From a virus, in the IMG/VR virus record IMGVR_UViG_3300025769_001086, positions 1 to 20,563 of that record: a DNA stretch of 20,563 nucleotides, one strand, 5' to 3'. The notes under the pieces were generated by a model. It was not told where the DNA came from and searched no databases. It saw nothing but the letters and a program-made list of their open reading frames with translations. This document shows, piece by piece, positions 13 through 19,777 of this stretch (positions within the stretch are counted from its first letter, which is position 1; each line of letters begins with the position of its first letter). Both the position numbers and the translations under genes were made by a program.

Positions 13-624
13 ATGAACTGGAACGATATAAGCACGTTAAACTTTCAGAAGTACGCCAAGACTTTAAAGGAGAAGCCCGAAAGCGAATTAGAGCGCGTTC
101 AATTGTTGATTAAGCAAAACGCTATTTTGTTAGGGGTAACAGAAGACGAGGCAAAGAAAATACCTTTGGGAGAATTGCAGAGCGTTAAAAACTTATTGAC
201 TACTCCAATACCGCAAAAGATATACGAGACATTTAAACTACATGGTCTTTGGTACGAGGTTACAATGAATCCGAAAGAACTAACAGCGGAACGATTCGCA
301 GGAGTTCAAGAAGCAGCAAAGAACGATGATCTAGCTTTGGCGATGTATTATATCTGCCGACCGTTTAAGCCAAGTTTATTGAAGCGTAAGTATTTCGAGT
401 TTAACGAGAGCGAGATACCAGAACGAGTGAAAGGATTTAACGACTTACCCGTAACGATCACCTATCCGATTACCAGTTTTTTTTTGAAGACACGAAACGA
501 ATTTACAGACTATTTCCTTACCTCTTCAATAGAGATATCGAAGCGGATGAGGGAGGAAGTCCTGGAAGATTACAAAGAATATACGGATGGTTTGCGACAA
601 TCGAAGCAATTAGTAAAAGACTAG
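13..624 (+). CDS. Tail assembly chaperone, unshifted product
   Basis: This 203-residue protein is the zero-frame product of what looks like a two-product tail assembly chaperone gene (the lambda G / GT arrangement), which in known phages coats the tape measure protein during tail assembly. Seen: a small soluble acidic/basic helical protein with an N-terminal region up to about residue 75 and a core with the pattern WYEVTMNPKELTAERF followed by a segment ending YYICRPFKPS (about residues 80-120), typical by eye of Bacteroidetes-phage chaperones. The ATG at 13 is preceded by in-frame stops in the first 12 bases. From residue 156 the message runs through nine T residues (477-485), where a -1 shift would give a longer product; the last 46 zero-frame residues are then an alternative tail. 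It lies four genes upstream of the tape measure rather than directly before it. Family assignment is from pattern and context only. Confidence 0.72.
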   Translation: MNWNDISTLNFQKYAKTLKEKPESELERVQLLIKQNAILLGVTEDEAKKIPLGELQSVKNLLTTPIPQKIYETFKLHGLWYEVTMNPKELTAERFAGVQEAAKNDDLALAMYYICRPFKPSLLKRKYFEFNESEIPERVKGFNDLPVTITYPITSFFLKTRNEFTDYFLTSSIEISKRMREEVLEDYKEYTDGLRQSKQLVKD

Positions 625-752
625 ATGAGAATTGGGATAATACCGCTAAAAGGAACGTGATAGATTTTTTGAGTAAAGCGCAGTACTACTCAATACAAGC
701 AGAAGAAGAAAGAGAAAGACATGAGCAAGAACTTGCTAGGCATAGAAGATAA
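13..752 (+). CDS. Tail assembly chaperone, -1 frameshift product (G-T-like)
   Basis: Predicted fusion of about 246 residues: zero frame from 13 to 483, then the -1 frame from 483 to the TAA at 750-752. The -1 frame is open from 441 to 749 and contains no ATG, so it cannot easily be a separate gene, yet it reads like protein: an aromatic helical stretch (IYGWFATIEAISKRLDENW) followed by a strongly charged EEERERHEQELARHRR end. That matches the T part of known chaperone pairs, which binds the tape measure. The fused end overlaps the following gene by 32 bases. In known phages the fusion is made in a small minority of translations. The alternative is a miscounted T in the nine-T run, which would make the fusion the only product. 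What is seen is the two open frames and the slippery site; the function is inferred. Confidence 0.68.
477..483 (+). promoter_or_regulatory. Slippery heptamer T TTT TTT for -1 frameshifting
   Basis: In the zero frame the sequence reads AGT TTT TTT TTG, so T|TTT|TTT is a perfect X XXY YYZ slippery heptamer where both tRNA-Phe can re-pair after a one-base backward slip. The T run continues to 485. A possible stem (514-524 with 549-558, ten pairs with one bulged A) lies about 30 bases downstream, which is further than the usual spacing, so it may not be the stimulator. No upstream Shine-Dalgarno-like stimulator is seen. Confidence 0.65.
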
Positions 753-1287
753 GGACTTAGTAACACTAGGTAAGGAGAACACTATAGCTGGAGTACTTCA
801 AGACTTTGGCAATAAGTTGCAAGCCGACCTACGAAATAACTTACAAAAAGAAATAACCTCTATCACCCCTAAGACGTTAGAGCAGTCTATTGTATTTGAT
901 ATTAAATTCTTAGGCACTAACTATCAGTTCGAGTTGAAGATGGAGGACTACTGGGAGTTTGTTGATAAAGGGGTGCAAGGTGTAGGCGGTGTAAGTAAGT
1001 CGGGGCTATTCTCTTACGTTAAAAAGAACAACACCAGCCCGTTTAGTTTTAAGAAGAACGGTTGGAAGCCCCCTATAAGCGCGCTAGAACCTTGGTCTTA
1101 TAACAATGGGGTAAATCCTTTCGTAGTTCAAAACTCGGTATTCTACAGAGGTATACGAGCAACTAACTTTTATTCTGACGTAGTTGATAACAAATTAGCC
1201 GAGGATTTAGTTAATAGACTAGAAGAAGTAGGAGCAAAAGAAATAACAATTAGTTTAAAAAAGGCTTTCAAAGGTGAAGCAACTTAA
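721..1287 (+). CDS. HK97 gp10-like head-tail/tail completion protein
   Basis: A 188-residue protein resembling the HK97 gp10 / tail-completion family, which acts at the head-tail or tail-terminator interface. Visible marks are an amphipathic N-terminal helix region (about 18-50), the motif YWEFVDKG at 77-84 and the C-terminal motif FYRGIRATNFYSDVV at 141-155, both common in gp10-like proteins of phages. The ATG at 721 lies inside the frameshifted end of the upstream chaperone (overlap 32 bases), suggesting translational coupling. Placement inside the tail module rather than next to the portal fits the rearranged gene order here. The family call is from memory of motifs, not from alignment. 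Confidence 0.6.
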   Translation: MSKNLLGIEDKDLVTLGKENTIAGVLQDFGNKLQADLRNNLQKEITSITPKTLEQSIVFDIKFLGTNYQFELKMEDYWEFVDKGVQGVGGVSKSGLFSYVKKNNTSPFSFKKNGWKPPISALEPWSYNNGVNPFVVQNSVFYRGIRATNFYSDVVDNKLAEDLVNRLEEVGAKEITISLKKAFKGEAT

Positions 1288-1402
1288 AACAATACAGGTT
1301 ACTCAACAAGAGATACAGATGGCTACAAGACATAACGTGTATAATAATAAGAAAAAATACACAAGAAAGTCTAAACATAAAAATAACGCTCAATGGCGAT
1401 AG
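1274..1402 (+). CDS. Small basic protein, possible gene
   Basis: This fills the gap between two tail genes. With a GTG start at 1274 it encodes 42 residues; with the ATG at 1319 it encodes 27 (MATRHNVYNNKKKYTRKS and onward). It is rich in Lys, Arg, Asn and Gln and lacks hydrophobic segments. The GTG start overlaps the upstream stop by 14 bases and the TAG stop overlaps the downstream ATG at 1393, the same tight spacing as the annotated neighbours. Short basic ORFs of this kind occur in other phage late operons, but the length is too small to be sure it is translated. No function can be assigned. Confidence 0.38.
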   Translation: MKQLKTIQVTQQEIQMATRHNVYNNKKKYTRKSKHKNNAQWR

Positions 1403-2667
1403 TAATTAACACAGATACAAGGTTATTTAGTCCCGTCTATAATAAGATGGAAGTGCAAGTATTCCAAAACGATGCTTCTATTAGGACTAAACCAGATTAT
1501 AGATATATCTTCGATATTAAGATAGTAGACTATATTAGCGGCTCTACGGTTGTATTCACGGCAAAGGTAACACCAGACCCGTTATTAGGGCGAGGTGTTC
1601 AAGATTTAAGCGGACACGTTGAAAAGTACATTAAGGAGAATATCGTACCGCACGACGATACAGACGCTATAAGAATAACGGATAACGCGGTAATTAGATA
1701 TTTTGTAGAGTACGGGGAAGAGTATAGGCTAACCGCTAACGATCCTATCGTAGAATATAAGAACCTAGTAACGGGTACAGATAAATACGCTTTTGGAGCA
1801 AGCTTAGAGGAGCATAGATGGATAGACTTCTATAACAATTCCGAGTACTTACTATACTTATTCGACACTAATAACCAAGGCGAGTTCTTAACTAATTATA
1901 AAACTCCAAGCGTATACCTAACGGATTTAGGCTGGCATTGGTATCTAAGCGAAACGCCCACGAGTGTGGATTTTGTGCGCGTATTGACTTACGACTCGTC
2001 AGGTGTTTTGCTTGGTACTTTTGATATACCTAACAACTCGGTAACGGGGTTAGATCAATCGAGAATGAATAGCGTAGCAACAGCACCACAAAGCCTTAAT
2101 AATATAACGGGGGCTTTCTTAGTTGGAGCGCAGCCAGTTATAACATCTTCTGTCGCTAGTTATACCGTTCAATGCTTTCAAAGTCCAGGCACTGCCGTAG
2201 GAGAAATATTATATTTCACTTTAGATAGCGAGTGCTTCTACGAAACGTTTAGAGTACACTTCAAGAACGAATACGGGGCTTACGATTCTTTTAACTTCAA
2301 AGGTAATAGTAAAAGGTTATCCGATGGAGAGAGTAAGGACTATACCACGAACGCTAATAATATAACTTCTACTGGATTGGTTTATAGCCACGACACAATT
2401 AAGAAGATAAACTATTATACAAAGTACTCTAATAAACTTCAATTGGAAAGCGGACTAATTAACGAGACTCAACTAAACTGGTTAAAGGAGATGGTTTTTA
2501 GTCCTCAGCTATTTGTTGAGTTTGTAGATAATAACGGAGACCATAACTTTAAGCCTGCGATAATCAAAGGTTCTAAATCATGGAGAGAGTTAAAAGACCA
2601 AGTAGACAAGGTGTTTAATTTTAGTATCGAATTAGAATTAGCGGATAACTTTAGACAACGTAGATAA
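1393..2667 (+). CDS. Tail structural protein, Bacteroidetes-phage type
   Basis: A 424-residue soluble, beta-rich protein without signal peptide or membrane segments. It has several aromatic-rich repeats of the form seen in virion proteins and a central-to-C-terminal segment ECFYETFRVHFKNEYGAYDS (about residues 280-300), which I recognise as typical of a tail protein that precedes the large baseplate protein in Bacteroidetes phages. The C-terminal part (LKDQVDKVFNFSIELELAD) has the look of a domain that packs against a ring neighbour. Its last base is the first base of the next start codon (TAATG), so the two are translationally coupled. A distal-tail or baseplate role is inferred from position between chaperone and hub protein; the exact role is unknown. 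Confidence 0.55.
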   Translation: MAIVINTDTRLFSPVYNKMEVQVFQNDASIRTKPDYRYIFDIKIVDYISGSTVVFTAKVTPDPLLGRGVQDLSGHVEKYIKENIVPHDDTDAIRITDNAVIRYFVEYGEEYRLTANDPIVEYKNLVTGTDKYAFGASLEEHRWIDFYNNSEYLLYLFDTNNQGEFLTNYKTPSVYLTDLGWHWYLSETPTSVDFVRVLTYDSSGVLLGTFDIPNNSVTGLDQSRMNSVATAPQSLNNITGAFLVGAQPVITSSVASYTVQCFQSPGTAVGEILYFTLDSECFYETFRVHFKNEYGAYDSFNFKGNSKRLSDGESKDYTTNANNITSTGLVYSHDTIKKINYYTKYSNKLQLESGLINETQLNWLKEMVFSPQLFVEFVDNNGDHNFKPAIIKGSKSWRELKDQVDKVFNFSIELELADNFRQRR

Positions 2668-5666
2668 TGAGAGAGCAATTATTTATAAATGGAATAGAAA
2701 TACCTTTAAGCCGTTCTCTTGATCCGTCTTTTACTCGGTCTATCACGGACATAAAGAACCCAGAGAAAAGAAACGCTACTTATTCTAAATCTGTAACAGT
2801 ACCTAACTCAAAAGAGGCTAACGTTTTATTCGCTTCTATTTGGGATATTAACATTATTACTAGCTCTTTCGACGTTACTAAAAAAGCAGATTGCAGATAT
2901 ATTTTAAATGGCGCGGAAACGATTAGCGGTTATTGTCAGTTAAAAGAAATTAATATAACCGACAACAAAGAAATAGAGTACTCAATAGTCATCTATTCGG
3001 AGTTTGCTAATTTAATGAAGTCAATCCAAAACCTAGAGTTAACAGATTTAACGGGGTTAGATGTTTACGATCATATCATTAACCAAGAGGTGCAAAACTG
3101 GTCAACGGGTAACGATGGAGAGCCTTATCAAATATTTAAAAACTATCCTAGTACTATTCCAGGTGCTTTAGGTGTAGGTTATATCTATCCGCTTATAGAC
3201 TTCGGTTTATCTAGTGACGCGGTTACATACGACGTTATGGATATAGCCTGCTGTATCTATGCAAAAGAGTACTGGGATAGAATACACGATCAAGCGGGTT
3301 TTACTTACGAGTTTTTAGATTCAGATTTTGAGGATCATTTTAAACACTTAATAGTTCCAGGAAGTCCAGACGCTTATAAATTAGACTCGGACGATATAGC
3401 ACTAAGAGAGTTCAAAGCTAATACGGCAGTGTTTGACGATACGGGAACAAGCACCTCCAACAACTTAACTAAAGGCTCTTTTAGTACTCCTGACACAATT
3501 ATCTTCACGGTTGAAGAGTTAGACCTTGGAGGTGTTTATAATAACGTTAACGGAAAGTTTACCGCGCCTGCTTTAGGTAGGTATTCGATTACTTCTATAT
3601 TCGACATATTTGTAAATTTTAAACCTAACGATACTATATCTAGTTTGGAGAGCCTCGGGGAGGTTGACTTTATCGCTAGAATTAAATTCTATGACGCAAG
3701 TGCGGCAACTACTACAACGATAGAGGAAATAAACTTTAGGATTAAACACGAAGGTTTTTCTGTTGGTAACAGAACTTCTACGGTATTACCTACTGCTGGC
3801 AATCCTGACTACTTCACAGAGCTTTTCCTTGTTGATATTCCTAGAGAAGTTAACCCGCCGAATAGAGTGCAGTTAGCAATTATCAATAAAGAAATGAATA
3901 CGGGAGACCAAGTTTATATTGAATATACCGCTAACTACGAGACTGATTTCCCTAACTACTTTAGAGATGGAGGGGGTACTTTCTCTGGGGGTAATGCTAC
4001 GTTAAATTTGGTTAGCCTTACTCCAAGTACTTTAGCGGGTAAGGTTTCCAATACTAATATGTTAGAGGGGAGTTTCTTCGAGATAGAGCGAGCGATCCCT
4101 GAAAACGTTAAGCAGTTAGATTTTTTGATGAACTACATTAAGGAATATAACCTATTTGTAGACATAGACACAGACAAGCCAAAGCATTTAATATACGCCC
4201 CTAGAGATACGTTTTATAATACTGACGTAATAGACTTACGGGAGAAGGTATCTATTGACAAGGGGATAGTTTATAACCCAGTGGGGGCTTTAGACGCGAA
4301 AGAATATCTTTATAAACATAAAGATGATAACGACTATTTAAACCAAAAATATAAAAGCGATTGGTTAGCAACTTACGGACAACGTTCAATACTAACCACT
4401 AACGATTTTAGCGAGAAGGTAAGCAAAACAGAAGTGCCGTCTAGCCCTACACCGTTAGCGGATCAAGGCAACGGTAATAACAGAGTAGTCTCAACTATTT
4501 TAAAAGTAGACGAGTTAGGTAATAGAGTTAGTACTAAGTTTAATTGGCGAACGCTTTACTACGGAGGGTTAAAGGATAACTTTGAAAACTGGGTACACCA
4601 AAGTGCGGTATTCCCGCCTATCTCACAAACTCAATATCCATACGCTGGACATTTTGACGATCCATTTAACCCTACTTTAGACATTAACTTTGGGTTAGTT
4701 CGTGAGGTTTACTATTACGACTTTATCGACGATATTATACCAACAGACAATAACCTTTATAATAAATATCATTCTAAGTATATTAGAGAGATAACGGACA
4801 AGGATAGTAAGTTAGTCGAAGCTTTCGTTAATATGGACGCGGTAGATTTTAAAACATGGTCTTTTAGAAACTTATACTATTTTGATAACGCTTATTTTAG
4901 ACTTCAAGAGGTGCAAGGTTTTAACCCTACATCTAATGAATTAACTAAATGCGTATTCTTAAAGTTAAAAGAGGTTAGCCCCTTTAAACCTACTTTAACT
5001 CCTGCCGATGGTGGGGGTAGTCCTTTTGAACCTCAAACAGACGACGGTACAACAGGAGGAGAAGTTAACCAACAAGAGTTTAGCCCATTAAAAGGCATTA
5101 CACAAAGCCCGCAACAAGACGGCAACAACTACAACGCGCGCACTAATGAAGTAACGGGAGAGGACAACTTTGTAAGTATTAAAGCGACTAACGTAAGCAT
5201 CAAAGGCGATGGCAACCAAGTTTACTCTGGTGTCGATGGTGCGACTTTACTAAACTCTAACAATAACGTAATATCCGCAGGGTTAGCAGACGTTGTGTTA
5301 ATTAATACTGACGGTGTAACGGTAACGGAATCGGGAGTAACTTATATCGGAGGTCAAAAGGTTAACCCAGATCAAATAAGCTTACCTACAGCGGTTGAAA
5401 CGGTTACGACTAGCCAAACTGTTAGCAGTGACGTTTTAACTTATATGGGTGATACTTCTGGAGGTGACATAACAATGACATTTAATTTAGTAGGCGAGGT
5501 ATACACCGAGGGGCAAGTATGGAATTTTAAAAAGGTTGCTTCGACTAATCAGTTTATAATTTCAATTTTAGGTGGAACTATTGATGGTTCATCCTCTATA
5601 AACATTACAAGAATATACGATAATGCAGCCGTGCAATACGACGGCACTAATTTTATTATAATTTAA
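2667..5666 (+). CDS. Baseplate/tail hub protein with C-terminal fibre region
   Basis: At 999 residues this is the largest protein in the window. The N-terminal 120 residues carry the pattern IPLSRSLDPSFTRSITDIKN followed by NPEKRNATYSKSVTVPNS, a recognisable start of large Bacteroidetes-phage tail-tip proteins. The middle is beta-rich and aromatic. From about residue 780 a Gly/Asp/Ser linker (PADGGGSPFEPQTDDGTTGG) leads into short Asn/Gly/Val repeats (NVSIKGDGNQVYSG, NSNNNVISAGLADVVLINTD), the look of a beta-helix or beta-prism fibre, and the last 93 residues resemble trimeric fibre caps that end in VQYDGTNFIII. The inferred role is a tail-tip hub that also supplies a short central fibre, perhaps touching the host surface. 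No lysozyme or peptidase motif was seen. Confidence 0.6.
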   Translation: MREQLFINGIEIPLSRSLDPSFTRSITDIKNPEKRNATYSKSVTVPNSKEANVLFASIWDINIITSSFDVTKKADCRYILNGAETISGYCQLKEINITDNKEIEYSIVIYSEFANLMKSIQNLELTDLTGLDVYDHIINQEVQNWSTGNDGEPYQIFKNYPSTIPGALGVGYIYPLIDFGLSSDAVTYDVMDIACCIYAKEYWDRIHDQAGFTYEFLDSDFEDHFKHLIVPGSPDAYKLDSDDIALREFKANTAVFDDTGTSTSNNLTKGSFSTPDTIIFTVEELDLGGVYNNVNGKFTAPALGRYSITSIFDIFVNFKPNDTISSLESLGEVDFIARIKFYDASAATTTTIEEINFRIKHEGFSVGNRTSTVLPTAGNPDYFTELFLVDIPREVNPPNRVQLAIINKEMNTGDQVYIEYTANYETDFPNYFRDGGGTFSGGNATLNLVSLTPSTLAGKVSNTNMLEGSFFEIERAIPENVKQLDFLMNYIKEYNLFVDIDTDKPKHLIYAPRDTFYNTDVIDLREKVSIDKGIVYNPVGALDAKEYLYKHKDDNDYLNQKYKSDWLATYGQRSILTTNDFSEKVSKTEVPSSPTPLADQGNGNNRVVSTILKVDELGNRVSTKFNWRTLYYGGLKDNFENWVHQSAVFPPISQTQYPYAGHFDDPFNPTLDINFGLVREVYYYDFIDDIIPTDNNLYNKYHSKYIREITDKDSKLVEAFVNMDAVDFKTWSFRNLYYFDNAYFRLQEVQGFNPTSNELTKCVFLKLKEVSPFKPTLTPADGGGSPFEPQTDDGTTGGEVNQQEFSPLKGITQSPQQDGNNYNARTNEVTGEDNFVSIKATNVSIKGDGNQVYSGVDGATLLNSNNNVISAGLADVVLINTDGVTVTESGVTYIGGQKVNPDQISLPTAVETVTTSQTVSSDVLTYMGDTSGGDITMTFNLVGEVYTEGQVWNFKKVASTNQFIISILGGTIDGSSSINITRIYDNAAVQYDGTNFIII

Positions 5667-5668
5667 TT

Positions 5669-6439
5669 ATGAGTTATTTCGGATCAACAGATTATTTGAT
5701 TGAGGTTTCAAAAGGGAACGTACCAGGAGCTTCATTAATAAATAAGTTCGGGGCTAATATTTCACTATCTTCAAGTTACGTGCCTATTTCTATAAATGGG
5801 ATTTATCAAACTCCTCAAGCGTCTGCACCAGAAACATTGTTTTTGAGAAGCACTAGCGCCAGCGATACAGCAGGCGGTATAGGTGCGCGAGAAGTAACCA
5901 TTGAAGGTATTGCTGCAGACGGAAGTTTACAAACGGCATCCGTTGCGACAAACGGCGTGTCAAATAGCGCAAATTTTGCAGGTACTTGGATAAGGATTTT
6001 CCGAATTTATGTATCAGAGTCGGGAACTTACGCAACCGCATCAACTCAATCTCATGTAGGAACTATACAAGTTAGGTCTTCAACTTCTGGGGTTTGGGGG
6101 GTTATTGAAACCACAAACATAGCCAAATCTCAATCGCAGATAGGCGCATACACGGTGCCTTTAGGGTTTACCGCTTACCTACTAGATTATACGGTCACGC
6201 TTGACTCTGGCAAAACGGTTGACTTTGCTTTTTTCTTACGGGAAAATATTTTGCAGACTTCCGCTCCTTATTCAGCTATGCTGTTAAAGTTCCAAGAGAT
6301 AGGACTTGCAGCACCTTTTACACGAAGCTTTCCCGATCCTGTAAAATTCCCCGAACTTACCGACATAGGCTTTTTAGCGAAAGGATCACAAACACCAAGT
6401 GTAACAGTCGATTTTAACATATTATTAATAGAAAATTAA
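5669..6439 (+). CDS. Baseplate or tail-tip protein
   Basis: A 256-residue beta-rich protein that starts two bases after the hub-fibre stop. Motifs visible by eye are NKFGANISLSSSYVPISING (about 25-44), SASDTAGGIGAREVTIEGI (62-80) and the C-terminal FPELTDIGFLAKGSQTPSVT. I recognise this as a family widespread in marine tailed phages and cyanophage-like myo-/podoviruses, where it is annotated as a virion or baseplate protein of unknown detail. There is no catalytic motif, signal peptide or membrane helix. Coupled neighbours (hub before it, tape measure one base after its stop) support a tail-tip structural role. Confidence 0.52.
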   Translation: MSYFGSTDYLIEVSKGNVPGASLINKFGANISLSSSYVPISINGIYQTPQASAPETLFLRSTSASDTAGGIGAREVTIEGIAADGSLQTASVATNGVSNSANFAGTWIRIFRIYVSESGTYATASTQSHVGTIQVRSSTSGVWGVIETTNIAKSQSQIGAYTVPLGFTAYLLDYTVTLDSGKTVDFAFFLRENILQTSAPYSAMLLKFQEIGLAAPFTRSFPDPVKFPELTDIGFLAKGSQTPSVTVDFNILLIEN

Positions 6440-6440
6440 G

Positions 6441-8564
6441 ATGGCAGAAAACGTAGCATTTAAGTTAAACCTCGACGCTGGAGACGCTCCTAAGACTTTA
6501 GCGGATTTAGAGAAAAGAGTCCAAGACGTAAACGAAGAACTCTCTAAAACCGAAATAGGTACGAAGCAGTACGAGGATTTACGTAGGGAGTTAGTAAGGA
6601 ACAACAAGGAGCTAAAGAACTTGGAGCTAGGTTACGAGGCTTTAGACGTTGAACAACAAGCTTCTGAACTTGGAAGTGTAGCAGGTGCGGTTGGAGATGT
6701 TACCAGTGCGTTCGTTTTACTTGGTGGTGAGTCCGAAACAATGGAACAAATAGCCGCGAGCATACAAACCGCGTTAGGTGTATCAATGGCGTTTAAGGGT
6801 GCTATTGAGGGCGTACAATCTGCCCGTAAGTTACTAAACTCGTTAGATAAAGAAAGTTTAATATTTAAGATTAAAGACGCTATAGCTACTAAGGCATCTG
6901 CAGCAGCGCAGGGGCTTTATACTGCTGTTGTCGGAACTTCTACGGGGGCTTTGAAAGCTTTTAGGATAGCGCTAGCGTCTACGGGAATAGGTTTAATAGT
7001 CGTTGGATTAGGTCTATTAATTTCTAATTTTGAAAAAGTCTCCAATTGGGTTAAAGACACCATAAAATCGTTCGCTGGTTTAAGTGACACTATCCTATTA
7101 TTATTAGGCCCGATTGGGTGGTTAATTCTTGCCTACGAAGCTTTGTTTGGAGAAATTGAAGATGGTGAAAACAAAGCCATGACCGCAAACGAGAAAAGGC
7201 AAAAGGAAAACGCTAAAGCGCATAAAGAAAGAATTAAGCAAATAGAAGAGGAGAGGGACGCTTTAATAAAAGCCTCTAATGATAAAATTTCAGCCTTAGA
7301 AACCGAACTGGAAATAATAGAAGCGTCTGGCGAAGAGTCAAGTAAAATAAGCAAACAGATTCTAAAAGAGGAATTGGCTAAAACGCAAGCCGTATTAGAC
7401 GCTAACCAAAAGAAAATTCAATCATGGATAGACTACTATAAACTACAAGCGGAACTATCTGGACAGTCAGAGGAGCAGTTTATCGAATCAATGAAGTCAA
7501 GAGGTGTTGATCTTGAAAGACTAAACAACGAAGCGCAAGAACTATTAAAGAAGAACGAGGACGCGGTAAGACTTGCAGAAGCTAGAATAACAGGGTTAGA
7601 AAAAAAGGAGCGCGAGAAACGATCGCAGGAAGCGGATAAATTAAGACAAGAACAAGAGAAGAAAGACCAAGAAGCGTTAAACGCTAGGACTAAACGAATA
7701 CAAGAAGAGACAAAAGCGTTAATGGATTTCTACGACAAAGTAGAAGCTATTGAAAACGAGTATAACAATAGGTTTATATCCGAACAAGACCAACAAGAGA
7801 ACGCAGTTAGAGATAAGTATTTTGCTTTAATTGCGGAGGCTGAAAAGTACGGAGAAGATATAGCCATACTTGAAGCAGCGAGAGAAGCAGAGTTATTAGA
7901 TATTCGTAACGATTTTAGACAACAAGAACTAGAAGCACAGCAAGCTTTAAAAGATCAGGAAGCGCAAAACATTCAAGATAGAATAGCAGAAGAACAAGCC
8001 CTTAACGAATCAAAAATAGAGTTTGCACAACAATCTTTAAACTCTTTAAATGCTATTAATGACTTAGCTTTTGGTGCTGAAATAGAACGGATAAAAGCAA
8101 AAGAACAAGCAGGAGAGAAACTATCTGCTAACGAACGTAAACGATTAAAGAGAGACGAGCAAATTAGGAAAGCTTTCGCAGTTGCACAAGTTGCTATCGA
8201 TACGGCAAGTGCTATTAGTTCGGCTATTGCTGGTGCAACGGCTGCTGCTGCCGCCACTGGACCTGGTGCGGTAGTTGCTACACCTTTATTTATCGTTTCT
8301 CAAATTGCTACGGTATTGGGAGCGTTTGCCCAAGTCGCAAGTATATTGCGCGCTCCTAGCCCTAGTATAGGAAATATAAGCGGAGGCGGTGAAATAGATG
8401 CGCCAGACACAGAAGGAGCAGCACAAGATGCGCCAGATAATAACCAATTCGATTCGGGTAGTACTTTCTTAGATATACCGCAAAAAGTTTACGTACTAGA
8501 ACAAGACATAACCAATACACAGGATACGGTTGCTAATATAAAGCAACAGGCTACTTTCGGCTAA
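6441..8564 (+). CDS. Tape measure protein
   Basis: A 707-residue tape measure protein that sets tail length and is injected with the DNA. Seen: an N-terminal charged coiled coil (about 17-75), hydrophobic segments at about 180-195 and 217-236, a long Glu/Lys/Gln-rich coiled coil from about 250 to 560, and an Ala/Val-rich region at about 585-645. This domain order is standard for tape measure proteins. By the usual rule of about 0.15 nm of tail per residue, the tail would be near 100 nm long (inference). No peptidoglycan hydrolase domain was seen. It starts one base after the upstream stop, and the next gene begins with its own possible promoter. Confidence 0.85.
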   Translation: MAENVAFKLNLDAGDAPKTLADLEKRVQDVNEELSKTEIGTKQYEDLRRELVRNNKELKNLELGYEALDVEQQASELGSVAGAVGDVTSAFVLLGGESETMEQIAASIQTALGVSMAFKGAIEGVQSARKLLNSLDKESLIFKIKDAIATKASAAAQGLYTAVVGTSTGALKAFRIALASTGIGLIVVGLGLLISNFEKVSNWVKDTIKSFAGLSDTILLLLGPIGWLILAYEALFGEIEDGENKAMTANEKRQKENAKAHKERIKQIEEERDALIKASNDKISALETELEIIEASGEESSKISKQILKEELAKTQAVLDANQKKIQSWIDYYKLQAELSGQSEEQFIESMKSRGVDLERLNNEAQELLKKNEDAVRLAEARITGLEKKEREKRSQEADKLRQEQEKKDQEALNARTKRIQEETKALMDFYDKVEAIENEYNNRFISEQDQQENAVRDKYFALIAEAEKYGEDIAILEAAREAELLDIRNDFRQQELEAQQALKDQEAQNIQDRIAEEQALNESKIEFAQQSLNSLNAINDLAFGAEIERIKAKEQAGEKLSANERKRLKRDEQIRKAFAVAQVAIDTASAISSAIAGATAAAAATGPGAVVATPLFIVSQIATVLGAFAQVASILRAPSPSIGNISGGGEIDAPDTEGAAQDAPDNNQFDSGSTFLDIPQKVYVLEQDITNTQDTVANIKQQATFG

Positions 8565-9800: not shown

Positions 9801-10229
9801 TACTCGAGGGCTTGCACGTAATGGTGGGGTTTTCGGTTAGCTTCCCTCGTCTTTTATTTATTAAAAGTAACCGATAAAATACATAATAACCGAATCAACG
9901 GCTTTACCTTGGGGCAACCGTATAAAAAACAAACCCAATTCAGAAACGATTTAGTTACACATAGAAAGACGGTTTTAAAATTCTCGCTCTGATCCAAACC
10001 TATCAACGAGGACTTGCAGGACTTTTTTAAGTTGAATATAAAACCGAGTAGAAAGCCGTAATAATGCTAATCGGCACGTTTAAAATAACGTAAGGGGTAC
10101 AAATGCTTTCTATGTGAGTTAATCTATTTTGATTAAACAATCTCTATCTATTATGCAAGGGGTAAGGGGATTCTTGTATAATCTATCAAAAAAAGTACAT
10201 AAGTAATTCTGTTATCGTTTAGTAGACGT
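9801..10229 (+). ncRNA. Structured leader or ncRNA candidate without a gene
   Basis: This is the only long stretch without a convincing gene; all frames are broken by stops, and the longest ATG-started ORF noticed has 18 codons. It holds many paired elements: CGAGGG 9805-9810 with CCCTCG 9844-9849; TCGGTTA 9833-9839 with TAACCGA 9868-9874, which together would form a pseudoknot; CTTTTA 9851-9856 with TAAAAG 9862-9867; CGGTTTT 9970-9976 with AAAACCG 10040-10046, enclosing a hairpin of 9981-9986 with 10007-10012; ACGTT 10076-10080 with AACGT 10087-10091; TTAATC 10119-10124 with GATTAA 10131-10136. A long-range CTTGCA (9811-9816) with TGCAAG (10154-10159) is possible. It may be a regulatory 5' leader of the head operon or a phage ncRNA. 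It does not match tmRNA, RNase P or a group I intron core that I know. Confidence 0.35.
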
Positions 10230-11393
10230 ATGGACTTATTTATTTTAGATATCCCCGATGGGGATCAAAAGGAGTTTCAAATTGCTTTAGTAGACGAACC
10301 AGCTATTGAGTCGGATTGGATAGCTTTTAATAAGCACCAAAATTTCAAGATACAATCTAAAGAAAGACGTATTGTTTCGGGCTACGCTATGATAGCGGAT
10401 TTAGAGATACCTAGATACGACGAGCGAAGAGGTTACTATAACGTAACATTCAGAAAGGGCAATATTGAAAAGATATGGCTCAACTTTCACCGTAACAACT
10501 TAATGACTAACACAAACGAAATGCACCAAAGCGGTAAGTTCGCAGAAGGTGTTTTTGTATGTGAGTCTTTTATCATTGATTCAGAACGTGGCATTAAAGC
10601 TCCTGAAGGATTTAAGCAAGAGCCTGACGGTTCGTGGTTTATTTCTATGAAGGTAGAAAATGACGACGTGTGGAATAAAGTACTAGAGGGAACTTTTAAA
10701 GGGTTCTCAATAGAGGGGCGTTTCTTTGAACGTCCTGCGGAGACATTCGCAAATAAGTTAAAGGATTTAATAAAAACAAATATGACTAAAGAAGAGTTAA
10801 AAGATAAAGTAGTTTCTTTCTTCAACAAAGAAGAAGATGCGAAGATCGAAGAGCCTAAAAAAGAGGGCTTCGAAAGCGTTTTGCTAGTTGACGGTGAGAC
10901 AGAGTTAACTATCGAACCAGCAGTAGAAGTTGGGGCAGCGGCAGTAATTATGTTAGACGGTGAACCACAGCCTGCGCCAGTAGGTGAGCATGAACTAGAA
11001 GACGGCAGAGTTATCGTTATCGAAGAAGCGGGAGTTATCGCAGCGATTAACGAGCCAGAAGTAGTGGTTGAAGAAGAGCCAATGGCTGACAAATCTACAC
11101 CAGAGCAAGCGCAAGTTAAAAAGATTATTGAGCGTATCGAATCGGAAAAGATTTTCGAGAAGATCGCAGAACTTCAGGAGACTGTTAAGTTTTTGAAAGA
11201 AGAAAATGAAGCTTTAAAAGCTGAATTTACAGAAAACAAAGGCGAAGCAAAAGACGAGTTCAAAAAACTTAAAGACTTCTCGGAAGAGGTTTTTAAAACG
11301 TTACTTGACGAGCCAAGCAAAGAGCCAGTTAAGAAACAATTCAACCCTTTTAAGAAAGAGAAAAAAGGGAACATATTTTTACAAAACAACTAA
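10230..11393 (+). CDS. XkdF-like prohead protease fused to scaffold region
   Basis: 387 residues. Residues 45-170 fit the XkdF-like prohead serine protease family (peptidase S78_2): VSGYAMIADLEIPRYDE, then H99 in NEMHQ, CESFIIDSERG at 111-121 and S160 in KGFSIEG, the likely catalytic His and Ser. After the protease part comes a beta-rich Val/Ala/Glu segment (about 215-275, VGAAAVIMLDGEPQPAPVGE) and a coiled coil at about 295-355 typical of capsid scaffolds, ending in a Lys-rich tail (FNPFKKEKKG). The inferred role is to scaffold prohead assembly and then digest itself and the inner proteins during maturation. It lies directly before the capsid gene. The ATG at 10230 is the first after an in-frame TAA at 10200-10202; no Shine-Dalgarno sequence is seen. 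Confidence 0.8.
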   Translation: MDLFILDIPDGDQKEFQIALVDEPAIESDWIAFNKHQNFKIQSKERRIVSGYAMIADLEIPRYDERRGYYNVTFRKGNIEKIWLNFHRNNLMTNTNEMHQSGKFAEGVFVCESFIIDSERGIKAPEGFKQEPDGSWFISMKVENDDVWNKVLEGTFKGFSIEGRFFERPAETFANKLKDLIKTNMTKEELKDKVVSFFNKEEDAKIEEPKKEGFESVLLVDGETELTIEPAVEVGAAAVIMLDGEPQPAPVGEHELEDGRVIVIEEAGVIAAINEPEVVVEEEPMADKSTPEQAQVKKIIERIESEKIFEKIAELQETVKFLKEENEALKAEFTENKGEAKDEFKKLKDFSEEVFKTLLDEPSKEPVKKQFNPFKKEKKGNIFLQNN

Positions 11394-13181: not shown

Positions 13182-13515
13182 CCCTACTTATTTATTTGAG
13201 TTCACGAGTGATTTAACTAAGCAGTCGAATACTTGTATTTGTGCGGATCAAAGTACACCTGGAGCGGCTAGAACTAGAGCAAACCTTTTTAATATTACTG
13301 AAGGTGTAGACGATAGGCTAAATAGTTCTTTAGTTTTATTCAACGCTGGAAGATATCACTATACAATAAGAGAACAAGAGAGTACAACGAATTTAGACCC
13401 CGATTTAAGCGGTGCGATAGTCGAAAGAGGGATAATGATACTTGCGGACTTTTCTACAAACCAATACATAGAACACGAAATTAACGTAACTTATATAGCA
13501 CATGAGCCTTTCTAA
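13102..13515 (+). CDS. Phage protein upstream of portal, unknown function
   Basis: 137 residues from the ATG at 13102 (MSQIRLKKGQETQNVVLTLA); a TTG at 13096 is possible but less likely. The pattern NVVLTLAEKTTISSPTYLFEF, followed by an acidic-aromatic FNITEGVDD and ending with an IEHEINVTYIAHEPF strand, is one I recognise as a common Bacteroidetes-phage head or neck protein family. It is beta-rich with no enzyme motif. It overlaps the upstream gene by 80 bases and the portal start by 14 bases, a chain of overlapping genes that would be translated in order. Confidence 0.62.
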   Translation: MSQIRLKKGQETQNVVLTLAEKTTISSPTYLFEFTSDLTKQSNTCICADQSTPGAARTRANLFNITEGVDDRLNSSLVLFNAGRYHYTIREQESTTNLDPDLSGAIVERGIMILADFSTNQYIEHEINVTYIAHEPF

Positions 13516-15688
13516 TTTATATTTTTTTAACGGGGTTGATTTATTGAAGTTTGACGCTCATAAGACGCCAGAGTTTAAGCAACGTAATACAGTTGATTGG
13601 GTTCTATATGGAAACGATGACGAGTGGAAAAATAGATATCCTGACTATTTAATTCATCTTTATAATTCAAGCCCTAAGAACAACGCTATAATCAATAAGA
13701 AGTGTTCTTATATTAAAGGACAAGGTTTAAACTTTGGCGGTGCTGGTTTAAGTCTCCAAGACAAAATAGAGCTTGGCGGTTTTGTTGCTAAGTTAGAAGA
13801 CTCTAAAGTTTTTGAGAGGTCTGTAAGTGACCTATCTATTTTTGGTGGGTTTGCTAACGAGATGGTATTTAATAAAGGGGGTAATAAGGTAGAACCGTAT
13901 CACATAGACTTTTCAAATATCCGCGTATCTAAGCCCGTTTGGAATGAAGAAGCGCAAGATTGGAATAGACCTACTTACTATTATACTTCCGATTGGTCGT
14001 CTAGAAAGCCGCACAATAATGAAGACTTCGTAGAGTTTGAGGAATTTAACCCTAACGAAACACCAGATAAAAACAAAAGATACTTATTCTATTATAAAGA
14101 GTATAGACCAGATTTAGGAGTTTATCCTTTACCTGACTACCTGGCGAGCGTTCCTTATATTGCCGCGGATTACGAAATAAGTAACTTCACTATAAACAAC
14201 GTTAAAAACGGGTTTACAAGTGGGTACTTAATTAATTTTTATAACGGTGATCCTACCGAAGAGCAAAAGCGCGATATAGTCGCTAATTTTGACGCGGTAT
14301 TGCACGGTACGGATAACGCTGGCAAGTCTATTAAATCTTTCAACGAGGATAAAGATAGCGCGGTAGACATTACACCACTTAACGCCAATGGACAAGATGA
14401 TAGATTTATCAACTTAAATAACACTATACGCGACGAAATTTACACAGGGCATGGAGTTGATCCAGTTATAGCAGGGTTAAAAGGTGATAGCGGATGGAGC
14501 AATAACGCAGACGAGAAGAGGGTAGCGGTTGAGGAATGGCAAAATAGCTACGTAGACTCTAAACAAAAGATATTTGAAGATTACTTTACTAACGTTGCTC
14601 ACTTCAACGAGATTAAAGGTAAGGTTGTGATAGTTAAAAAGCGACCAACGACAGCCCAAGCCTCAGAGAATGAAATAAGAGAAATACTAACAATAGAAGA
14701 AAGACGCGAAAGAATAGGTTATCCAGCACAAAAACCACAACCTAAAGCAACTTATGTTAAGCAATCAAAAGAAGAATATTTTGAGAGCTATACAGATTAT
14801 CCAAAGGGCGCAACGTCAAACGCAAAAAGAGCTTTAGAATGGGCAGATAATAACGGTTGGGGTTCTTGCGGCACAGATGTAGGAAAGATAAGAGCGAACC
14901 AATTAGCAAACCGTGAGCCTATAAGCTTAGAAACTATAAAAAGGGCGTTTAGCTTTTTAAGTAGACATGAACAAAATAAGGATGTACCTTATTCTGAGGG
15001 ATGCGGTGGACTAATGTATGATGCTTGGGGCGGTGATGCTATGAAACGTTATGCTAAAGCTAAGATAAAAAAGGTTGAAGATGAAAAACTAATACAACAG
15101 TTTTCTAACTGCGGTATAAATGACGACGAACTAGAGTTTATCGATTCTAGGCAAATTCCAATTTTAGGAACAGAAGACGCTTTTAGTAAAGAAGAAGATT
15201 ATAAGCAACAATTCGCTACAAAGATAGAGATTTCAATTCTTAAACTTTTAATTGGCGGTGCTAAACCATCGGACATACAAAAGAGTTTAAAGATTAGCGA
15301 AGAAAAATATAACGAATCAATCGTTAACTTAACCGAAGAAGGCTATTTAACGGATGACGGAGATATAACGCAAAGCGGAGAAGAAGAGTCTAAGAAGGAT
15401 GAGGTTTTTGTAGTTTACAAATATGTAAAGCGAAACGATGTAAGTGGGGGTGATATTATCGACACAACTAGAGACTTCTGCAAAAATATGGTTAGACAAA
15501 GCCGTACTAGATCGTGGACGCTAGAAGAGATTAAGTTAATGAATAATAGAATGACTTATCCTGGCGGTAGAAAGATGGACGTATTTACAACGCGCGGAGG
15601 ATGGAGAACGATAGAAGGCTCAAAACCTGCTAGACACGTACCGTTTTGTAGACATATATGGGAACAAAGATTAGTAAGAAGAAGGTAA
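13502..15688 (+). CDS. Portal protein with extra C-terminal domains
   Basis: 728 residues. Residues 1 to about 410 are the portal: NAIINKKCSYIKGQGLNFGG near the start, DYEISNFTINNVKNGFTSGY at 223-242, and HGVDPVIAGLKGDSGWSNNA at 317-336, with the DPVIAGL(K) segment typical of portals. Three further parts follow. Residues 433-520 form a small phage domain marked by NNGWGSCGTDVGKIRANQLA, FLSRHE at 485-490 and YDAWGGD at 506-512, seen in various phage head proteins but of unknown role. Residues 565-625 look like a winged-helix segment (ISILKLLIGGAKPSDIQKSL). Residues 650-728 carry DTTRDFCKNM (C660) and HVPFCRHIWEQ (C716), a Bacteroidetes-phage head domain. The portal forms the DNA entry ring; an add-on role in head assembly or packaging is inference. 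It lies downstream of the capsid gene, which is unusual. Confidence 0.8.
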   Translation: MSLSNLYFFNGVDLLKFDAHKTPEFKQRNTVDWVLYGNDDEWKNRYPDYLIHLYNSSPKNNAIINKKCSYIKGQGLNFGGAGLSLQDKIELGGFVAKLEDSKVFERSVSDLSIFGGFANEMVFNKGGNKVEPYHIDFSNIRVSKPVWNEEAQDWNRPTYYYTSDWSSRKPHNNEDFVEFEEFNPNETPDKNKRYLFYYKEYRPDLGVYPLPDYLASVPYIAADYEISNFTINNVKNGFTSGYLINFYNGDPTEEQKRDIVANFDAVLHGTDNAGKSIKSFNEDKDSAVDITPLNANGQDDRFINLNNTIRDEIYTGHGVDPVIAGLKGDSGWSNNADEKRVAVEEWQNSYVDSKQKIFEDYFTNVAHFNEIKGKVVIVKKRPTTAQASENEIREILTIEERRERIGYPAQKPQPKATYVKQSKEEYFESYTDYPKGATSNAKRALEWADNNGWGSCGTDVGKIRANQLANREPISLETIKRAFSFLSRHEQNKDVPYSEGCGGLMYDAWGGDAMKRYAKAKIKKVEDEKLIQQFSNCGINDDELEFIDSRQIPILGTEDAFSKEEDYKQQFATKIEISILKLLIGGAKPSDIQKSLKISEEKYNESIVNLTEEGYLTDDGDITQSGEEESKKDEVFVVYKYVKRNDVSGGDIIDTTRDFCKNMVRQSRTRSWTLEEIKLMNNRMTYPGGRKMDVFTTRGGWRTIEGSKPARHVPFCRHIWEQRLVRRR

Positions 15689-18981: not shown

Positions 18982-19157
18982 CATTTTTTAAAGATCACAA
19001 AAACAAAGATAGCGTTATGAGGTTAGGGTTTTATACTTTAATCTTAGGAGGGTTGATATTCGCTTTTATTTATCCTAGCGAGCATACAGGTTACTTAGGT
19101 ATATTAGCAGCAGCTGTTGGTATGAAGTGGCAACAAAACCGTAGCGAAAATGCGTAA
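18978..19157 (+). CDS. Two-helix small membrane protein, holin candidate
   Basis: 59 residues (MTFFKDHKNKDSVMRLGFYT), with a charged N-terminus and two hydrophobic segments at about 14-32 (LGFYTLILGGLIFAFIY) and 36-50 (TGYLGILAAAVGMKW) separated by a short polar turn (PSEH). It fits a small class II-type holin with both termini inside, and it lies next to the amidase as holins usually do. It overlaps the amidase stop by four bases and the next gene by eight. No similar sequence is known to me, so the call rests on topology and position. Confidence 0.6.
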   Translation: MTFFKDHKNKDSVMRLGFYTLILGGLIFAFIYPSEHTGYLGILAAAVGMKWQQNRSENA

Positions 19158-19482
19158 ATATATCCCCTACGCGATTATAATCGTTTTAACAGTAGTTTTT
19201 ACGATGATCTATACAAGTATATCAAAAGAAAAAGAAAGTCTCTTAGAATCAAGATTAGAGCTATTAAACAAGGTCAGAGAATTAAGGTTTAAGTACGAAC
19301 GTTTAGAAAACGAAAAAACTATCCTGAAACAAGAACGGGATATGTTAGAACTAAAAATCAAAGATTATGAAAGCGAAAACGACTCTATTATTAACTCGGT
19401 TAAGTCTGCTCATATTGCTAGGAATTACGCAGCCGTCGATAGTATCGGGGCAAGCATCCTTAAACGATTGCGACACCGTTAA
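19150..19482 (+). CDS. Inner-membrane spanin-like protein (Rz-like)
   Basis: 110 residues with an N-terminal transmembrane anchor (about residues 5-24, IPYAIIIVLTVVFTMIYTSI) followed by a long Glu/Lys-rich coiled coil (about 25-82), ending with a basic LKRLRHR tail. This is the build of an Rz-type inner-membrane spanin, which spans the periplasm to fuse inner and outer membranes after the wall is cut. The 3' end contains an out-of-frame start for the next gene, the classical spanin gene layout. Evidence is topology and context; no family motif is known to me. Confidence 0.6.
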   Translation: MRKYIPYAIIIVLTVVFTMIYTSISKEKESLLESRLELLNKVRELRFKYERLENEKTILKQERDMLELKIKDYESENDSIINSVKSAHIARNYAAVDSIGASILKRLRHR

Positions 19483-19777
19483 ACATATTTGCTACTCTGA
19501 TTACGTTCTATTGATTGAATACGCTCAACTAGGTATTAATCATGATAGTATAGTCATTGAACTGCGTAGAGTTATCGTTAACCTGGAAACTCAAAACGAA
19601 TTAACGGAGGATCAAATCCAGCTACTAAAAAAAGAATCCGATTTATTACAAAACCACGTTCGAGAGCAAGACAAAGAACTAGCCGTTAGACAACGCAAGA
19701 TAAAATTTCTACGGTTCTTCGCAACGGCTAGCACTACCTTGTCTGGTGTATTGCTTTTAGTGTTATCTACCTCGTAA
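19367..19777 (+). CDS. Secreted coiled-coil protein, possible spanin partner
   Basis: 136 residues starting inside the spanin-like gene in the +1 frame (overlap 116 bases). Seen: an N-terminal signal peptide (about 1-28, LLLTRLSLLILLGITQP), a periplasmic coiled coil (about 60-108, LTEDQIQLLKKESDLLQNH) and a C-terminal hydrophobic segment (about 115-133, FFATASTTLSGVLLLVLS). It lacks a lipobox Cys at the cleavage site; the first Cys is several residues later, so it is not a standard Rz1 lipoprotein. A signal peptide, coiled coil and C-terminal membrane helix are also the layout of a unimolecular spanin without the lipid anchor. It overlaps the convergent gene's stop by 15 bases. Confidence 0.62.
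   Translation: MKAKTTLLLTRLSLLILLGITQPSIVSGQASLNDCDTVKHICYSDYVLLIEYAQLGINHDSIVIELRRVIVNLETQNELTEDQIQLLKKESDLLQNHVREQDKELAVRQRKIKFLRFFATASTTLSGVLLLVLSTS

Follow-up and report, generated by a model that had tools for sequence, protein, structure and literature searches.

Programmed -1 ribosomal frameshifting is a known mechanism by which lambda and many dsDNA phages obtain two products from one gene (PMC5009743). In the lambda gpG/gpGT pair, a single start gives two products, the longer one carrying a -1 extension with a different C-terminal domain, and the slip takes place at an in-phase heptamer in a gene located among the morphogenesis genes. In the genes subject to transcriptional realignment, i.e. 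Thermus dnaX, IS elements and Shigella mxiE/spa13, long runs are avoided elsewhere and no ribosomal stimulator is found, and where the two frames meet, Thermus dnaX and the IS elements have A9 sites, with A or T runs at least nine long. In the openly accessible literature searched, no phage tail chaperone made by transcriptional slippage and no recoding of the T9-10 family described here was found to be reported. To our knowledge, nearly all known tail-chaperone shifts are ribosomal.

The gene analysed here resembles lambda gpG/gpGT in all the features listed above, and differs from it in having a homopolymer fixed at 9-10 without a conserved stimulator, a frame-0 product that continues for about 30-63 codons past the slip in dual-coded sequence, and a position after TerL, four genes away from the tape measure gene, with no significant sequence match. 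With the transcriptional realignment genes it shares the long run at the frame junction, the avoidance of such runs elsewhere and the lack of a ribosomal stimulator; it differs from them in that its run consists of T and lies in a phage assembly gene. Among cultured phages, the pairs gp38/gp39 of Nonlabens phage P12024S and gp40/gp41 of P12024L (phrog_32199) are alike in having a homologous gene after TerL, a T9 run (CTT TTT TTT TAT) and a -1 extension, but they are annotated as two separate hypothetical proteins, have a shorter frame-0 tail and are very divergent in sequence.

Organization of the recoded gene

The window, i.e. the whole stretch of DNA analysed, is a virus record of 20,563 bases, from which the run, the frames and the ORFs were read directly; all features given here lie on the + strand. 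The frame-0 ORF (nt 13..624, stop codon at 622-624) codes for a protein of 203 aa (AlphaFold model pLDDT 87), made up of an N-terminal domain of 157 aa that reaches to the second slip codon and a frame-0-only tail of 46 codons. A run of nine T at nt 477..485, read in frame 0 as AGT TTT TTT TTG AAG, is the sole A or T run of at least 8 anywhere in the window. The first-pass annotation had reported a T_TTT_TTT heptamer at 477-483 in phase for a -1 slip, and both the heptamer and the length of nine T were confirmed in the sequence; a second in-phase heptamer, T_TTT_TTG at 480-486, was absent from its list. Its -1 ORF (nt 441..752) was likewise found to be open over 103 codons (441-749) without any ATG, with the stop at 750-752, and to overlap at its end the next gene, whose ATG lies at 721. 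The used part of this ORF begins only at the slip, giving a -1 extension of 89 aa (nt 483..752), a helical domain with a YGWF...NVIDFL motif, and the slip thus leads to a fusion of 246 aa. Frame-0 tail and -1 extension are both encoded in the dual-coding overlap at nt 484..621.

The next gene (nt 721..1287, 188 aa) shares its first 32 nt with the -1 extension, belongs to phrog_29822 and is by eye similar to HK97 gp10-type tail/neck proteins. The tape measure protein (nt 6441..8564, 707 aa; phrog_1538, E 7e-8) is encoded downstream of the slip gene with four genes (721-6439) in between, exactly the distance that had been noted as unusual.

Conservation of the run and of the -1 extension

Seventy-eight related contigs were gathered, mainly by terminase or neighbour-gene searches, which do not select on the T run; the cultured Nonlabens phages P12024S and P12024L are among them. 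All tabulated contigs carried a frame-0 TTT TTT within a run of exactly T9 (65/78) or T10 (13/78), together with a conserved -1 extension, and a run of 7 or 8 T was never seen among the 78. Three contigs with 96-97% protein identity to the window gene had the same T9 and an intact -1 frame, while L007, at 45% identity, had a T10 in another codon context and the same phase. The frame-0 tail measured 31-63 codons in nearly all relatives and the complete -1 extension about 78-97 codons. The slip gene usually stood directly after TerL, the end of the -1 frame usually overlapped or abutted the next gene, and in most relatives an ORF started at or near the -1 stop. Runs of eight or ten T had been named beforehand as arguing against the shift; only ten T, in the codon phase of the window, fuses the two frames, eight T leading instead to the +1 frame.

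The cultured relative P12024S surfaced only via the fold search. Its gp38 corresponds to the frame-0 part and matched the family profile (E 2.6e-12), with the T9 at 23578-23586 and the -1 part annotated as the separate gp39; the same T9 is present in P12024L. Seven of 40 members of our family matched phrog_32199, to which gp38 belongs, at E<0.1 (best 1.8e-4), the window's own protein giving no match. P12024S and P12024L infect a Nonlabens/Persicivirga strain, which supports the earlier assignment of the window to a phage of Bacteroidota. In two distant homologues from a Flavobacteriaceae MAG (L108 and L109; profile E 9e-9 and 1.8e-8) both parts are encoded in one continuous frame with no T run.

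A tblastn search against GenBank phages with four queries (the frame-0 protein, two fused relatives and one continuous homologue) gave no matches, and no member was found by the family profile in Polaribacter phage P12002S, Flavobacterium phages 11b and 6H, Riemerella phage RAP44 and Cellulophaga phage phi10:1. The broad fused alignment of the family was too diverse for use in scans. One contig (L079) was set aside, as truncation or rearrangement of its gene has removed the site. In another (L102, nt 2931-3596), T9 and both parts are present with an in-frame stop in the N-terminal part (at about 3414), pointing to an error or to decay of the gene. In Flavobacterium phage 6H (L112), an unannotated 106-codon frame (+ strand, 10044-10361) lies -1 relative to the end of gp10, itself a fold-search match, and adjoins a T_TTT_TTC; this is possibly another unannotated recoded chaperone, though a -1 stop follows the heptamer.

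Purifying selection in both frames

Substitutions were counted in 21 independent sequence pairs. In the upstream stretch, frame 0 showed 292 synonymous against 91 nonsynonymous changes (neutral expectation 23% synonymous), and in the stretch past the frame-0 stop, frame -1 showed 139 against 48 (expectation 21% synonymous). Within the overlap, which spans about 30-63 codons across the relatives, all four conditional tests, in which one frame is assessed with the other taken into account, gave more synonymous changes than expected (p 2e-7, 3e-8, 6e-7 and 4e-4). Purifying selection in frame 0, in frame -1 and in the overlap indicates that both frames are read. Two-frame coding, a dual-coding overlap and a conserved run length are what the comparison establishes for the locus.

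The alignment of relatives, proposed earlier as a check, thus revealed a retained T9 or T10 and -1 extension with synonymous-biased change in both frames, and the programmed -1 frame change yielding a fusion protein was found conserved across large distances. The conserved run, the selection on both frames and the continuous-frame homologues together indicate that two proteins are made from the gene, a short one in frame 0 and a longer one with the -1 part fused on.

Slippage by RNA polymerase or by the ribosome

In the mechanism we propose, two products arise from one start: straight reading would give the frame-0 protein of about 203 aa, and slippage on T9 a protein of about 246 aa, with the first 157 residues in common and then the other, conserved 89-aa C-terminal domain of the -1 frame. 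The slip would most likely occur mainly in transcription, the RNA polymerase inserting an extra U at the T9-10 run; with 10 or 11 U in the mRNA, ribosomes would enter the -1 frame without slipping. A minor ribosomal slip on U_UUU_UUU may contribute.

The length of the run appears to be under selection beyond what a heptamer requires. Whenever the preceding codon contributed a single T the following codon was always TT-, and whenever the following codon contributed a single T the preceding one ended in TT, the total being at least nine. The second bases of the flanking codons compensate each other (Fisher p=0.002 in 23 clusters at 60% identity), and a tree of 43 representatives, on which each position underwent six parsimony changes, had no tip with 8 T, where 6.7 would be expected had the positions evolved independently (P=0.001). 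In other genes of the related phages long runs were depleted about sixfold with respect to synonymous shuffles, with one T8 run against 6.7 expected and one A9 against 6.8. Two marks of transcriptional realignment were thus observed, namely a conserved A/T run of at least nine at the frame junction and the avoidance of such runs elsewhere in coding sequence. In many bacteria, selection against slippage usually sets in at a length of nine nucleotides (PMC1088944), and E. coli RNA polymerase shows insertion slippage of about 5-10% on T7/T8, with a preference for poly(T) (PMC6260861).

A downstream RNA structure was looked for in 40 representatives and none was conserved family-wide (mean z 0.16), while an upstream SD-like motif was found in only two of the 40. 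A stable hairpin at nt 500..571, inside the dual-coding overlap, is restricted to the clade of the window (window, L002, L003 and L014; z -2.6 in the window and -3.7 in L014), where no covariation support for it was found; it begins at least 14 nt past the T run, farther away than is standard for a -1 stimulator. The observation of a poly-U site with no properly spaced stimulator therefore holds for the whole family, and it is best explained by RNA-polymerase slippage.

The alternative that best withstands these data is classical programmed -1 ribosomal frameshifting, yielding the same two products by a slip of the ribosome on U_UUU_UUU (or on U_UUU_UUG where present), as in lambda G/GT, and we assign to it a substantial probability, though short of an even one. 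T_TTT_TTT is in phase in every family member, the clade of the window does have a downstream hairpin, and a shift of a few percent would be enough. On the other hand, seven T suffice for such a slip, yet nine or ten are kept by compensating codons; T_TTT_TTC or any other heptamer is used in no lineage; the conserved stimulator is missing; and in E. coli U_UUU_UUU is a weak site, far less shift-prone than A_AAA_AAG (PMC5009743). Of the ribosomal shift proposed in the first-pass annotation, the in-phase heptamer stands, but its translational nature becomes doubtful, at least nine T being kept with no family-wide stimulator and at a threshold that fits RNA-polymerase slippage.

Against slippage by the polymerase, the heptamers required by a slipping ribosome are all present too, and those tail-chaperone shifts that the consulted review covers are ribosomal. 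The compensation could partly mirror amino-acid constraint (small/polar-FF-Leu versus Val/Leu-FF-small), and the avoidance of long runs elsewhere could stem from replication slippage instead. On balance, a length of at least nine kept by compensation, the avoidance of long runs and the lack of a conserved stimulator favour, modestly and short of proof, RNA-polymerase slippage over ribosomal slippage.

Putative function of the two products

Two products with a common N-terminus, one of them longer, match the lambda G/GT arrangement, and by analogy with gpG/gpGT an abundant short form and a rarer long form would constitute a tail assembly chaperone pair, in which the C-terminal domain of the long form would recruit the tail tube protein. 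The gene is not adjacent to that of the tape measure, and for this reason we compare its mode of action with that of a G/GT pair without counting it as a member. The HK97 tail assembly chaperone (PDB 2ob9) came out best in the second-look structural comparison with the first 69 residues of the frame-0 model, ranking first of 529 chains with 65 aligned residues and an rmsd of 4.2 A, at a Z of 3.5 that is far below the level indicating homology. One of 40 members weakly matched Phage_TAC_7 (E 0.0037), none of the 40 matched PHROGs named as chaperone, and the viral fold library returned a protein annotated as tail assembly chaperone at E 0.05. Neither the two parts nor the fusion had a significant match to a named family in Pfam, PHROGs or NCBIfam; PDB sequence profiles gave no matches and the structural search with the -1 extension no usable match. 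Of the proposed equivalence to lambda G/GT, the two-product gene with a -1 shift is thus upheld, and the product is likely a tail assembly chaperone, an identity to which these matches weakly point.

The recoded protein might instead serve in morphogenesis in some way other than as a tail chaperone, a question orthogonal to the mechanism of the slip. Its gene follows TerL, four genes ahead of the tape measure, and matches no chaperone family significantly; the two-product architecture and the matches to the HK97 chaperone, to the annotated chaperone of the fold library and to Phage_TAC_7 speak against such a role, which we regard as rather unlikely. The joint reading, i.e. two products from one start, a slip made mainly by RNA polymerase and a chaperone pair, is in our judgement probable by a modest degree, with the polymerase as slipping agent, the product ratio and the chaperone role being its inferred parts.

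Other explanations of the two frames

Internal initiation, phase variation and assembly error were each considered and rejected on the evidence of the relatives. The annotation of P12024S gp39 implies that the -1 ORF codes for a separate, internally started protein, and an internal ATG is indeed present in that phage. In the window and in 13 other representatives no ATG, GTG or TTG lies ahead of the conserved motif, the GTG (657) and the TTG (669) of the window's -1 frame (441-749) coming after it; 32 of 41 representatives have no ATG, conservation begins at the slip site and continuous-frame homologues exist, making an internal start very improbable. Marginally less probable still is replication slippage, in which the run length would differ between genomes and toggle two proteins: homopolymers of 9-10 are mutable, but the 78 contigs share one out-of-frame state, without a single case in which a change of run length has fused the parts, and T9 and T10 lineages share the same phase. 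An error of sequencing or assembly, to which homopolymers are prone, is practically negligible, since the same run recurs across numerous independent assemblies and in both cultured phages, and both frames are under selection.

Other genes of the window

A portal-like protein with an extra C-terminal region is encoded at nt 13502-15688; over residues ~429-527, identity is about 45% both to portions of haloarchaeal tailed-virus proteins with portal, prohead protease or head morphogenesis annotations and to Vibrio and roseophage proteins, as a mobile domain found across very different phages. The gene just ahead of the tape measure (nt 5669-6439) is related to the Synechococcus cyanophage virion/tail family phrog_8198 (27-29% identity). 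Upstream of the putative major capsid gene, the product of nt 10230-11393, which matches head maturation protease families as well as a PHROG labelled DNA methyltransferase, is probably a protease plus scaffold. At nt 19150-19777, after the amidase gene, lie two ORFs (110 and 136 aa) in different frames that share 116 nt and have the look of an embedded spanin-type pair.

Implications for phages of Bacteroidota

These findings add a broad group of aquatic phages of Bacteroidota to those with two-product assembly genes in the style of lambda; in the cultured example the -1 part had been called as a separate hypothetical gene. Judging from the relatives compared, the T run is kept at nine or ten over a very long time. 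We tentatively suggest, with somewhat less than even confidence, that programmed RNA-polymerase slippage at a selected T9-10 sets the tail-chaperone ratio in a large family of siphophage-type morphogenesis genes of Bacteroidota phages, and that it may have evolved independently as another answer to the lambda G/GT problem, one with a long overlap coded in both frames. A run length held at nine or more by compensating codons gives a clean comparative signature for separating transcriptional from ribosomal recoding in any alignment. If polymerase slippage is true, the gpG:gpGT ratio, translational in the descriptions consulted, would here be reached by way of transcription.
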